From: Pseudonocardia hierapolitana
GTDB taxonomy: Bacteria; Actinomycetota; Actinomycetes; Mycobacteriales; Pseudonocardiaceae
Direction: 5' to 3'
DNA: 64,000 nucleotides
NCBI RefSeq assembly: GCF_007994075.1
Contig: NZ_VIWU01000001.1
Span: 4,464,001-4,528,000, forward strand
This document shows, in pieces, positions 39,949 to 43,419 of the stretch (position 1 is its first letter; the number at the start of each line of letters is the position of its first letter). The notes below the pieces were generated by a model. That model made no database searches and was not told where the DNA came from. It was given only the letters and a program-made list of their open reading frames with translations. The translations under genes and the position numbers were made by a program.

Positions 39949-40206
39949 AGCGGGACGTCCTCCCTTGGAGTGAACGGACGCTCGAATGTCTACCGGATGC
40001 CGATGACGTGCACCAAGTGTCATTCATCCGCTCGTCGCATGTCACACGAACGGTCTATTTCCGTTCAACGATGATTACCGACCGCTCGGCCGATCGAGCT
40101 GCCGTCCGGCGCTTCGTCGACCCGCTCGTCGGACCCGTCCGGGCCGTTCGGCCCGCGGGTGCCATGCGGTGGATGGATCGCGTCGTGATCTATCCGTGAT
40201 CTGGCG
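39949..40206. other. Intergenic region before the Asp/Ser-rich gene
   Basis: About 260 nt of moderately GC-rich sequence. It should hold the minus-strand promoter of the Asp/Ser-rich gene (a candidate ribosome binding site AGGGAGGAC reads on the minus strand at 39957-39965). No RNA gene or repeat recognised. Confidence 0.4.
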
Positions 40207-40220
40207 TTACGCGTTTTCGA

Positions 40221-40541
40221 TCACGGCAGCGTGCGGAAGCGCGAGCGGGTGGAGTCGAGCGCCTGCTTGGCGTAGATCCCGGCGCCGCCGCCCAGCAGCA
40301 GCCCGACGAGGTCGACCGGTACCGACGGGGACGCTGTGAGGAGCAGGCCGAGCAGCCCGACGCCCGCCGCGCCGCCCGCGACCTTCCACCGGCTGTTGAC
40401 GTAGTCGGAGGTGGTGCCGCCGGACAGCCCCTTCCTCTTCGCCGCGTTACCCAGCAGCGCCAGGTAGAGGACGTGGAAAGCGGCGACTCCCAGCCCGGCG
40501 AGGGCGATCACTGCCGCGACGATCCCGAACACCGCACCCAT
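40221..40541 (-). CDS. Small integral membrane protein
   Basis: A 106-residue protein with helices at about 5-33 (VFGIVAAVIALAGLGVAAFH), 52-70 (VAGGAAGVGLLGLLLTASPS) and 72-90 (VDLVGLLLGGGAGIYAKQAL). A basic loop AKRKGLSGG and the segment DYVNSRWK lie between the first two. No family recognised. It follows the chorismate mutase gene on the same strand by 57 nt and could share its transcript. Confidence 0.7.
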   Translation of the reverse strand: MGAVFGIVAAVIALAGLGVAAFHVLYLALLGNAAKRKGLSGGTTSDYVNSRWKVAGGAAGVGLLGLLLTASPSVPVDLVGLLLGGGAGIYAKQALDSTRSRFRTLP

Positions 40542-40598
40542 GGCACCAGAGTGCCACGGAAGGGGGGTGGCGCGCCCGGGAACTCCGCGTTCGGTGCG

Positions 40599-40883
40599 TC
40601 AGCTGGTGCCGAGGCGACCACGGCCCAGCCGCAGGAGGAGCAGCGCGAGGTCGCGGCCCTCGCTGCCGAGCTCCCGGAAACGGGCGAGCACGGCCATCTC
40701 CCGGCTGTAGACGATCCGCGGCCCGCCGGCGGCCATGCGGGCCCTGCCGATCGTCTTCGACACCTCGGTGCGGCGTTTGACGAGACGCAGGATCTCCGCG
40801 TCGAGGCGGTCGATCTCGACCCGCAGCGCGTCGATGTCGTCGGCGGTGGGGGCGTTCTCGGTCTTGTCGGTCGTCACGGTCAC
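40599..40883 (-). CDS. aroQ: Chorismate mutase, AroQ type
   Basis: Converts chorismate to prephenate, the branch toward Phe and Tyr. The 94-residue intracellular AroQ-delta type, like Rv0948c, has a first helix DIDALRVEIDRLDAEILRLV with RRTEVSKTIGRARMA, then a conserved GGPRIVYSREMAVLARFREL and a final RLGRGRLG. GTG 40883 follows AGGAGGAG. It is divergent from pcrA as in mycobacteria. A Phe/Tyr-rich leader ORF and a terminator-like hairpin lie between the presumed promoter and the gene. AroQ-delta enzymes are weakly active alone and are boosted by DAHP synthase. Confidence 0.92.
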   Translation of the reverse strand: MTVTTDKTENAPTADDIDALRVEIDRLDAEILRLVKRRTEVSKTIGRARMAAGGPRIVYSREMAVLARFRELGSEGRDLALLLLRLGRGRLGTS

Positions 40884-40927
40884 GGTCTCCTCCTGCAGGT
40901 GCCCGGCCCGGGCCCGTGACGCGCGAA

Positions 40928-40955
40928 CGCCCCGGGTCCGAAGGACTCCGGGGCG
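40928..40955 (-). terminator. Attenuator-type hairpin upstream of aroQ
   Basis: CGCCCCGGGTCC (40928-40939) pairs with GGACTCCGGGGCG (40943-40955) with one bulged base and a 3-nt loop. On the aroQ strand it follows the leader peptide stop by 13 nt and precedes the aroQ GTG by 44 nt, the position of a transcription attenuator. Downstream bases are TTCGCGCG, with no long T-tract. Confidence 0.75.
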
Positions 40956-40968
40956 TCGTGGGGGCTGA

Positions 40969-41031
40969 TCAGCAGGCCACGGGCACCGGTGTCCGGTACC
41001 CGTAGAAAAATCGATGGCTGATCAGTGGCAC
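40969..41031 (-). CDS. Phe/Tyr leader peptide of chorismate mutase
   Basis: A 20-codon ORF starting GTG (41031), encoding MPLISHRFFYGYRTPVPVAC. Codons 8-12 are Phe-Phe-Tyr-Gly-Tyr (TTT TTC TAC GGG TAC), the amino acids made downstream of chorismate mutase. The Tyr codons fall in a hairpin CGGGTACCGG/CCGGTGCCCG (40980-41002), and the stop lies before the terminator-like stem. This is the layout of trp/phe-type attenuation: ribosome stalling at FFYGY would alter the competing hairpins. Sequence features are seen; the mechanism is inferred. Confidence 0.75.
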   Translation of the reverse strand: MPLISHRFFYGYRTPVPVAC

Positions 41032-41088
41032 CGCAGCAGTGTGCCACACCGGGGGCTGTCGGGGAGCGGCGGTACCCTTTCGAACACG

Positions 41089-43419
41089 ATGAGTGCGCTG
41101 TTCGAACTGCCAACAGAGAACCCCGTCCAGCCCCGCACGGAGCGCGGTGCGGCGCTGCTGGAGGGGCTCAACCCGCGGCAGCGCGAGGCGGTGGTCCACG
41201 CCGGCTCGCCGCTGCTGATCGTCGCGGGGGCGGGCTCGGGCAAGACCCGCGTGCTCACCCACCGCATCGCGTGGCTGCTCGCCGAGCGTGGGGTCCACCC
41301 CGGCGAGATCATGTCCATCACCTTCACCAACAAGGCCGCGGCCGAGATGAAGGAGCGCGTCGACGCCCTCGTCGGCAGGCGCGGCAACGCGATGTGGGTG
41401 TCCACGTTCCACTCGATGTGCGTGCGCATCCTGCGGCGCGAGGCCAAGCACCTCGGCGTGCGCAGCGCGTTCTCCGTCTACGACGCCGACGACACGCGCC
41501 GGCTCGTCGGCCTGGTCGTGCGCGACCTGGAGCTCGACCCGAAGAAGTTCTCCGGCCGCGGCGTCGCGGCGCAGATCTCCAACCTCAAGAACGAGCTGCT
41601 GTCGGCCGACGCCGCCGCCGAGCGGGCCGCCAACGACTTCGAGCGCAAGGTCGCCGAGGTCTACGCGGTGTACCAGGCGCGGCTGCGCACCGCCAATGCG
41701 TTCGACTTCGACGACCTGATCATGGAGACGGTCGCGCTGCTGCAGCGGCTCCCCGCCGTTGCGGAGTACTACCGGCGCCGGTTCCGGCACGTGCTGGTCG
41801 ACGAGTACCAGGACACCAACCACGCCCAGTACGTGCTGGTGCGCGAGCTGGTCGCGCCCGCCGCCGAGGGTGTCGAGCCGGGCGAGCTGTGCGTGGTGGG
41901 CGACTCCGACCAGTCGATCTACGCGTTCCGCGGCGCGAGCATCCGCAACATCATCGAGTTCGAGCAGGACTTCCCGAACGCCCGCACGATCATGCTGGAG
42001 CAGAACTACCGCTCCACGCAGCGCATCCTGTCGGCGGCCAACGCGGTCATCGCGCGCAACCCCAACCGGCGCGACAAGCGGCTGTGGTCCGATCAGGGCG
42101 ACGGCGCGAAGGTGGTCGGGTACGTCGCCGACAACGAGCACGACGAGGCCGCGTTCGTCGCGCAGGAGATCGACCGGCTCGTCGACTCCGGCGAGATCCG
42201 CAACTCGGACGTCGCGGTCTTCTACCGCACCAACTCGCAGTCGCGGGTGTTCGAGGACGTGTTCCTGCGCGTCGGCCTGCCCTACAAGGTCGTGGGCGGG
42301 GTGCGCTTCTACGAGCGCAAGGAGGTGCGCGACGCGCTGGCGTACCTGCGGGTGCTGTCCAACCCGGAGGACACCGTCAGCCTGCGCCGCATCCTCAACG
42401 TTCCCAAGCGCGGCATCGGCGAGCGCGCCGAGGAGCTGGTGGCCACCTACGCCGACCGGGAGCGGATCTCGTTCGCGGCGGCGCTGCGGATCGCGGCGGA
42501 GCAGCCGGAGAGGATCCCGGGACTGGTCACGCGGTCGCAGCGGTGCATCGCCTCGTTCGTCCAGCTACTCGACGAGCTGAACGAGCTGGTGGAGCGCGGC
42601 GACGACACGGCGGAGATCCTGGAGGCCGTCTACGCGCGCACCGGCTACACCGCCGAGCTGGAGGCGAGCGACGACCCGCAGGACGGTTCGCGCCGGGAGA
42701 ACCTCGCCGAGCTCGTCACGGTGGCCCGGGAGTTCGCCGGCGACGCCGCGGTGGCCGACCTCGACGACTCGGACGTGGAGGTGGGAGCGCCTGCGCCCGG
42801 CTCGCTGGCGGCGTTCCTCGAGCGCGTGGCGCTGGTGGCCGACGCCGACTCCATCCCCGACAACGACGAGGGCATGGTCACCCTGATGACCCTGCACACG
42901 GCCAAGGGGCTGGAGTTCCCGGTCGTGTTCCTCACCGGCTGGGAGGACGGCGTGTTCCCGCACATGCGGGCCATGGGCGACCCGGCCGAGCTGGCCGAGG
43001 AGCGGCGCCTGGCCTACGTGGGCATCACGCGCGCACAGCAGCGGCTGTACCTGTCGCGGGCGATGATCCGTTCGTCGTTCGGGCAGCCCAACGCCAACCC
43101 GGCCTCCCGCTTCCTCGCCGAGGTGCCCGACGACCTGGTCGACTGGCGGCGCGCCGAGCCGGAACGCTCGGCGCCGGTGGGGAGGTTCGGGTTCGGGCGC
43201 AGGCCCACCGCAACCGACCGCGGCAGCTGGAACGTCCCGAAGGCCGCGCTCAAGGCGTCGATCTCCCTCGACGTCGGCGACCGGGTCAACCACGACAAGT
43301 ACGGGCTGGGCACCGTCATCGAGTCCGACAAGTCCACGCAGCGGGTGCTGATCGACTTCGGCAGCGCGGGCACGGTCCGGCTGATGCTCATCGGCGGAGT
43401 GCCGTTGCAGAAGCTCTAG
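41089..43419 (+). CDS. pcrA: ATP-dependent DNA helicase UvrD1/PcrA
   Basis: A 776-residue superfamily-1 3'-5' helicase acting in nucleotide excision repair and removal of recombination intermediates. Motif I AGAGSGKT is at 46-53, motif Ia SITFTNKAAAEMKER near 80, motif II LVDEYQDTNHAQY near 240, motif III VVGDSDQSIYAFRGA near 266, motif IV EQNYRSTQRI near 304, motif V VTLMTLHTAKGLEFPVVFLT near 597 and motif VI EERRLAYVGITRAQQRL near 640. The C-terminal Tudor-like KCEP region DVGDRVNHDKYGLGTVIESD binds RNA polymerase or Ku. ATG 41089 is the usual UvrD1 start; the upstream open frame is the antisense of the aroQ leader. Confidence 0.97.
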   Translation: MSALFELPTENPVQPRTERGAALLEGLNPRQREAVVHAGSPLLIVAGAGSGKTRVLTHRIAWLLAERGVHPGEIMSITFTNKAAAEMKERVDALVGRRGNAMWVSTFHSMCVRILRREAKHLGVRSAFSVYDADDTRRLVGLVVRDLELDPKKFSGRGVAAQISNLKNELLSADAAAERAANDFERKVAEVYAVYQARLRTANAFDFDDLIMETVALLQRLPAVAEYYRRRFRHVLVDEYQDTNHAQYVLVRELVAPAAEGVEPGELCVVGDSDQSIYAFRGASIRNIIEFEQDFPNARTIMLEQNYRSTQRILSAANAVIARNPNRRDKRLWSDQGDGAKVVGYVADNEHDEAAFVAQEIDRLVDSGEIRNSDVAVFYRTNSQSRVFEDVFLRVGLPYKVVGGVRFYERKEVRDALAYLRVLSNPEDTVSLRRILNVPKRGIGERAEELVATYADRERISFAAALRIAAEQPERIPGLVTRSQRCIASFVQLLDELNELVERGDDTAEILEAVYARTGYTAELEASDDPQDGSRRENLAELVTVAREFAGDAAVADLDDSDVEVGAPAPGSLAAFLERVALVADADSIPDNDEGMVTLMTLHTAKGLEFPVVFLTGWEDGVFPHMRAMGDPAELAEERRLAYVGITRAQQRLYLSRAMIRSSFGQPNANPASRFLAEVPDDLVDWRRAEPERSAPVGRFGFGRRPTATDRGSWNVPKAALKASISLDVGDRVNHDKYGLGTVIESDKSTQRVLIDFGSAGTVRLMLIGGVPLQKL

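Follow-up and report, generated by a model that had tools for sequence, protein, structure and literature searches.

The chorismate mutase gene aroQ of Pseudonocardia hierapolitana is preceded by a short leader open reading frame that appears to belong to a classical ribosome-mediated transcription attenuator, in which the supply of charged Phe- and Tyr-tRNA would set the level of chorismate mutase. We put the probability of this reading, which had been proposed in an initial annotation of the same DNA, at roughly 0.88, and it is supported by the conserved leader, its reading frame, a rare TTT codon and the hairpins. The leader lies on the minus strand in the gap between pcrA and aroQ, within the 64,000 nucleotides that were analysed (below called the window; Table 1). 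The leader, its frame, the promoter spacing, the hairpins and the association with aroQ rest on the sequence and on its comparison with relatives. Taken together they support the description of the aroQ leader as a widespread new case of a known attenuator type, with a probable leaderless start and with a rare Phe codon in first position.

Table 1. Features of the aroQ leader region, in window coordinates.
Feature	Position	Strand	Basis
Leader ORF, 20 codons plus stop, VPLISHRFFYGYRTPVPVAC	40969..41031	-	sequence; relatives
Leader start GTG; leader stop TGA	41031-41029; 40971-40969	-	sequence
aroQ, chorismate mutase, 94 aa	40599..40883	-	PRK07857, TIGR01808, Pfam CM_2
Shine-Dalgarno site of aroQ, AGGAGGAG	40887..40894	-	sequence
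pcrA, divergent neighbour, outside the switch	41089..43419	+	TIGR01073, 952.7 bits (cut-off 911.2)
Probable sensor codons TTT TTC TAC (Phe-Phe-Tyr)	41002..41010	-	codon counts, sequence
Extended -10-like box TGG-CACACT, with transcription predicted to begin at or beside the leader GTG	41038..41046	-	sequence and comparison
Arm 1 (core GGGTACCGG)	40993..41001	-	pair counts
Arm 2 of hairpin 1:2 (core CCGGTGCCC)	40981..40989	-	pair counts, sequence
Arm 2 as antiterminator arm, GGACACCGG	40994-40986	-	pair counts, sequence
Arm 3 (GCCCCGGAGTCC), partner of arm 2 (antiterminator) or arm 4 (terminator)	40943..40954	-	pair counts, folding, cognate/foreign test
Arm 4 (GGACCCGGGGCG), 3' side of the terminator stem	40928..40939	-	fold, pair counts, sequence

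The AroQ protein exceeded the curated cut-offs of both PRK07857 (124.5 bits, cut-off 73) and TIGR01808 (108.3 bits, cut-off 52.15) and also matched Pfam CM_2, and the gene starts with the GTG at 40883. The ORF of 20 codons carrying Phe-Phe-Tyr-Gly-Tyr at codons 8-12 had been given with correct coordinates on the minus strand; the five codons read TTT TTC TAC GGG TAC. The hairpin on the sensor region, GGGTACCGG-ACA-CCGGTGCCC (41001-40981, overlapping codons 11-17), and the second stem, CGCCCCGGAGTCC-TTC-GGACCCGGGGCG (40955-40928, 44 nt ahead of the aroQ GTG), had likewise been placed correctly. Two features had gone unnoticed, namely that codon 8 is the rare TTT and that the start codon stands 6 nt behind an extended -10-like box (41046-41038). 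The codons of the short ORF match the pathway of the product encoded downstream, Phe-Phe-Tyr being followed by a chorismate mutase.

Conservation was examined at 110 loci with AroQ homologues, 80 from named records and 30 from whole genomes, a set that includes the window's own genome and six duplicate pairs. A pattern search of the 500 nt preceding the AroQ match identified a leader of the form V...RFFYGYRxPVPV at 98 of the 110 loci, corresponding to 92 distinct leaders. Among the pattern-negative loci, inspection by eye revealed two further clear leaders (L097 and L101) and another aromatic-rich ORF at L109 and L102, while no leader was seen by eye at seven (L069, L071, L076, L077, L078, L080 and L095). 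One more locus without a leader by pattern, L002, is on a contig labelled Bifidobacterium breve (a MAG) that encodes an AroQ 62% identical to that of the window, and this contig is possibly misbinned. The hosts with a leader include, among others, Pseudonocardia, Prauserella, Actinokineospora, Saccharopolyspora, Actinomycetospora, Mycobacterium and Mycolicibacterium. For 51 loci added later, the script detected no leader at L229 and L234 and no terminator at L105 and L156.

One of the 92 distinct leaders lacked a terminator by pattern, leaving 91, and removal of near-identical sequences left 67; 60 of these plus the window leader (61 in total) formed the alignment and the RNA model. Among 249 genomes of the order, 226 (in 57 of 68 genera) had a model match at E ≤ 0.1 and, by hand count, 203 had one at E ≤ 1e-5; some of the leaders in the model come from these same genomes. 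An AroQ gene was detected in 232 of the 249 at E ≤ 1e-6. Among the matches listed in both searches (the best 150 of each), the leader was located upstream of AroQ on the same strand, at 45-266 nt, in all 109 genomes. The Phe-Phe-Tyr codons are thus conserved in the relatives; a lack of such conservation had been named in the initial annotation as an observation that would refute attenuation. Beyond the Pseudonocardiales-type genera, for which that annotation had suggested an alignment, the leader occurs order-wide, with altered forms elsewhere in the class. Further copies of the aroQ leader in the window's own genome were considered and rejected, given a single strong match of 88.6 bits, to a model containing the window leader itself, with the next match at 16.5 bits.

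The codon usage of the leaders points to the first three aromatic codons as the sensor. In the 92 leaders the first motif codon was TTT in 87 and TTC in 5, the second was a Phe codon in 78 and the third a Tyr codon in 88, but the fifth (codon 12 in the window) was a Tyr codon in just 58. The sensor is therefore most likely Phe-Phe-Tyr (codons 8-10). That the first residue is Phe follows from selection, since the pattern used for the 110 loci demands an aromatic residue in this position; the choice of TTT over TTC is unaffected by this. TTT accounts for 82 of 2900 Phe codons (2.8%) in the long ORFs flanking these leaders and for 4 of 236 in the window. That such a rare codon is kept, although the amino acid would be the same with TTC, points to decoding; a need for an unpaired U-rich stretch would be an alternative cause. 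Sensing of Trp by the aroQ leader was rejected, as Trp occurs in 6 of 91 leader peptides and each time ahead of Phe-Phe.

A -10-like box was found 5-9 nt ahead of an in-frame start codon in 83 of the 92 distinct leaders, and the gap between box and start was 6 or 7 nt in 82 of these 83. The start codon was GTG in 79 and ATG in 4, and TGN preceded the box in 76. All 75 ATG or GTG starts located 6 or 7 nt past a TGN box share the frame of the Phe-Phe-Tyr codons. A stop codon 30-48 nt past the first Phe codon was present in 92 of 92 leaders in the sensor frame, compared with 18 and 5 of 92 in the other two frames. The spacing of 6-7 nt between -10 box and start codon suggests that the leader is translated in leaderless fashion, and a transcript whose first base is that of the start codon would account for the missing Shine-Dalgarno site of the leader. 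A transcript start downstream of the leader ORF had been named as an observation that would speak against attenuation; at the sequence level, the conserved box predicts a start at the leader start codon instead. A simple scan of 40000-42000 returned no sigma-70-type promoter site.

The RNA structure was examined by folding and by comparison. The 153-nt leader folds with -84.7 kcal/mol, compared with -65.7 kcal/mol (sd 4.3) for shuffled sequences (z = -4.4), and none of 200 shuffles was as good. In the alignment (A1), hairpin 1:2 was paired in 90.0% of cells, whereas slid partners paired in 30.5-51.7%, and changes on both sides were seen at 5 pairs, which was matched by 2 of 500 shuffles. The core of the terminator is near-invariant, with compensatory changes at its foot (A-U in 31 and G-C in 13 sequences at one pair, A-U in 32 and C-G in 23 at another).

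The antiterminator 2:3 was read by eye from the window and the mycobacterial leaders. It was paired in 78.1% of cells (25.6-55.1% when slid), and one of its pairs is C-G in 43 sequences and G-C in 10. A neighbouring pair is U-A in 24, C-G in 9 and unpaired in 22, including the window with an A-A mismatch, and 2 of its 12 column pairs are mostly mismatched. The number of cells with both-side changes and the covariation score of 2:3 were above those of all 500 shuffles, a comparison in which relatedness alone can beat shuffles. Its pairs with a both-side change numbered 3, which was reached by 228 of 500 shuffles and lies within the 2 to 5 seen in slid registers, and its covariation score was 0.122 versus 0.110 at slide -2.

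As a further comparison, each arm of 137 leaders in 12 labelled families was matched both to its own partner and to foreign ones (L150, which was mis-parsed, and L235 having been dropped; the labels f1 and f8 of named loci were set by genus name, and those of three MAGs by resemblance). Cognate 2:3 duplexes had a mean of -15.9 kcal/mol versus -12.9 kcal/mol for foreign ones and were stronger in 9 of 12 families, the exceptions being f9 (2 leaders), f10 (1) and f12 (2). For 1:2 and for 3:4 the cognate arms were stronger in 11 of 12 families each. Arm 3 is common to 2:3 and 3:4, so that antiterminator and terminator exclude each other, apart from the exceptions given above. The pair counts, the RNA model and the further loci thus bear out the expectation that the stems would be conserved in relatives, and the comparisons support hairpin 1:2, antiterminator 2:3 and terminator 3:4, with 2:3 supported less strongly.

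Two other pairings were observed in the window. A perfect 9-nt inverted repeat, CTGATCAGC/GCTGATCAG (41025-41017 and 40973-40965), flanks hairpin 1:2 on both sides and extends across the leader stop codon; it is present in the window fold and in some Pseudonocardia. In the fold of 40918-40880, a TCACGG immediately past the terminator stem pairs with the aroQ start (ACCGTGA), and an additional translational control is possible from this predicted pairing.

We infer the following course for transcript start, translation, termination and amino-acid response. Transcription would begin at or adjoining the leader GTG, and a ribosome would translate the leader without a Shine-Dalgarno site. With ample Phe and Tyr, the ribosome would reach the stop codon and cover arm 2, arm 3 would pair with arm 4, and transcription would end ahead of aroQ. 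With scarce Phe or Tyr, the ribosome would stall at TTT-TTC-TAC and cover arm 1, leaving arm 2 to capture the emerging arm 3; the terminator would then come too late and aroQ would be transcribed.

This course was modelled by folding of 91 leaders, the ribosome being taken to cover 12 nt from the first base of the A-site codon. Before arm 4 was made, the probability of the antiterminator exceeded 0.5 in 68 of 91 leaders for a stall at the first Phe codon, in 73 at the second and in 69 at the Tyr codon, while 18 did not favour the antiterminator with a stall at the second Phe. For a stall at codon 12 the count was 0 of 91 by geometry, since a ribosome at this codon covers arm 2 and the antiterminator cannot form. 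The terminator had a probability above 0.5 in 84 of 91 leaders with the ribosome at the stop codon and in 82 of 91 with no ribosome. These model results fit Phe-Phe-Tyr as the sensor, with codon 12 free to vary. At equilibrium with arm 4 present and a stall at the second Phe codon, 61 of 91 leaders favoured the terminator and 13 the antiterminator; the window was all terminator. Given that the terminator beats the antiterminator at equilibrium, the predicted switch must be kinetic. A simple scan of 40000-42000 for terminator-like sites returned none.

The weak U-tract past the window stem (GUUCG) raises the question of whether the leader might govern access to the aroQ start and not termination. 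Such translational attenuation would also be in line with the predicted fold, in which the aroQ start is inside a stem, and with the Cys-rich leaderless ORFs of mycobacteria, which are described as acting on translation (as cited in PMC13236596). However, relatives have hairpins that finish in runs like GGGGCUUUUUC, and the window stem ends 44 nt ahead of aroQ. The spacing between the end of the leader ORF and the AroQ match also ranges from 69 to 267 nt in the listed leaders (L022-type to L068), which is a poor fit to masking of a fixed start. We therefore regard a purely translational mechanism as improbable.

The conservation of the peptide beyond Phe-Phe-Tyr, as far as PVPV, could indicate an arrest peptide, in which nascent RFFYGYRxPVPV would stall the ribosome through its own sequence or a ligand and not through a lack of charged tRNA. 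The PVPV part is, however, encoded by the covarying arms 1 and 2, other families change the peptide and keep Phe and Tyr (FLFTYGDRPTGCHGRAA, RFYFYYG, FVFAYAYAF), and the rare TTT is retained although TTC would encode the same residue, which makes an arrest peptide a still less probable explanation than control of translation. Lowest of all we place the absence of any regulation, in which case the conserved promoter gap next to pcrA would hold an ORF that arose by chance and a constitutive hairpin. A gap between divergent genes may be conserved for its promoters alone, but this would leave unexplained the frame-specific starts and stops, the rare-codon bias, the covarying hairpins and the presence of leaders ahead of aroQ in 12 labelled families; a chance ORF was rejected on the frame, codon and covariation evidence. 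The transcription attenuator sensing charged Phe- and Tyr-tRNA is thus the reading we retain. If it works in this way, these charged tRNAs would set the supply of the branch-point enzyme in this group, to which mycobacteria and many soil actinomycetes belong.

In Escherichia coli, pheA encodes a bifunctional chorismate mutase-prephenate dehydratase, and its leader pheL is Shine-Dalgarno-led and responds to Phe only; the aroQ leader differs in these respects, and no homology is claimed. The likeness consists in a Phe-sensing leader ahead of a chorismate mutase activity and in mutually exclusive hairpins (PMC11802643). The closest described case is AroR of Corynebacterium glutamicum (Neshat 2014, as cited in PMC11802643, PMC11525245 and PMC4046766), a leader that precedes aroF, encoding DAHP synthase. 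It resembles the aroQ leader as an actinobacterial leader peptide with Phe-Tyr-Phe, ribosome stalling and a place in the aromatic pathway; as described there, it differs in controlling DAHP synthase, whereas the aroQ leader precedes chorismate mutase, and it responds to Phe and not to Tyr (PMC11802643). The ilvB1 attenuator of Mycobacterium tuberculosis shares an actinobacterial uORF, regulatory codons and an antiterminator plus terminator, but concerns branched-chain amino acids and another gene (PMC13236596). The Cys-rich leaderless short ORFs of mycobacteria (Canestrari 2020, as cited in the same paper) are likewise leaderless short ORFs serving as amino-acid sensors, but for cysteine and with a translational action.

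A survey from 2005 reported no such element for Phe/Tyr genes in Actinobacteria. In the text of open PubMed Central papers we found no description of a stand-alone chorismate mutase of actinobacteria under attenuation control; such papers likewise yielded nothing on Rv0948c with a uORF and did not contain the peptide strings FFYGYR, FFYGNR or FFYGTR. The main texts of three papers on mycobacterial leaderless ORFs and attenuation, the gene labels of one figure aside, mention neither chorismate nor Rv0948c. Rfam 15 gave 0 matches at gathering in the window, and the leader matched just P15 (18.7 bits against a required 70, E = 0.056), so a known Rfam element was rejected on the curated score.

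Leaders with aromatic codons also precede DAHP synthase genes. In other families, a TIGR01361-type DAHP synthase is preceded by leaders that contain Trp, Phe and Tyr codons, for example MRTAWSFWYGDGPVRTDRLHALR and MQRNFWRFYGYRPDTPVACRALR (L272, L274-L279, L281, L283 and L286). In the window's own genome a Trp/Tyr/Phe leader, VQRWNYWFIRPAREGSAGEPLR, precedes an AroFGH-type DAHP synthase (L316, G000:C1:2400225-2401109), and those of relatives (L317-L331) read RYFWFSEPA and similar. Among the 21 genomes of this family with a DAHP_synth_1 match, 15 carry a Trp- and Phe-containing leader of this kind and 6 lack one. In the 14 of these leaders that were listed, TTT comes after the Trp codon, adjoining it directly in 13. 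Ahead of the type II DAHP synthase (TIGR01358) of the window's own genome no such leader was seen.

We consider there to be a slightly better than even chance that the leaders of DAHP synthase and chorismate mutase belong to an old two-tier system of tRNA-sensing control in actinomycetes, undescribed as a whole, that uses rare U-ending sensor codons. Under this joint reading, leaderless Trp/Tyr/Phe leaders would guard the entry to the pathway and leaderless Phe-Phe-Tyr leaders, with no sensor Trp, the entry to the Phe/Tyr branch, and in several lineages the switch would have been excised, with the promoter now driving aroQ directly. The odds are lowered by the type II enzyme without such a leader and by 11 unexplained weak matches, which come from a class-wide sample. 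Of the 197 genomes in this sample, 47 had a match to the RNA model at E ≤ 0.001 and 56 an AroQ match at E ≤ 1e-8. For 20 weaker class-wide matches of the model, tblastn showed a DAHP synthase gene nearby in 8 cases, AroQ in 1 and neither of the two in 11. The last group (L280, L282, L284, L285, L287-L290 and L292-L294) may represent chance or other genes.

Altered and lost leaders were also observed. In family f33 the leader reads MLTHPTFLFTYGDRPTGCHGRAA and similar, 6-7 nt behind a CATACT-type box, and was found in 10 of 12 stretches by script, in L295 by eye and at three more loci. Changed but still aromatic peptides elsewhere include RFYFYYG, FVFAYAYAF and AFCFF. At L069, L071, L095, L206, L207 and L208 the leader is absent and, judged by eye, a -10-like box stands directly ahead of aroQ, which would fit a deletion of the attenuator that left aroQ leaderless. 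The leaders at L202 and L217 look like decaying ones. The lineages that keep or lose the switch would provide a natural test of its purpose. In the Nocardia-type loci L076, L078, L080, L199, L200 and L204, a different short ORF was seen by eye behind the same kind of -10 box, for example MLSVFARHPIRLPAGRRDRGACT, which has no Phe/Tyr run.
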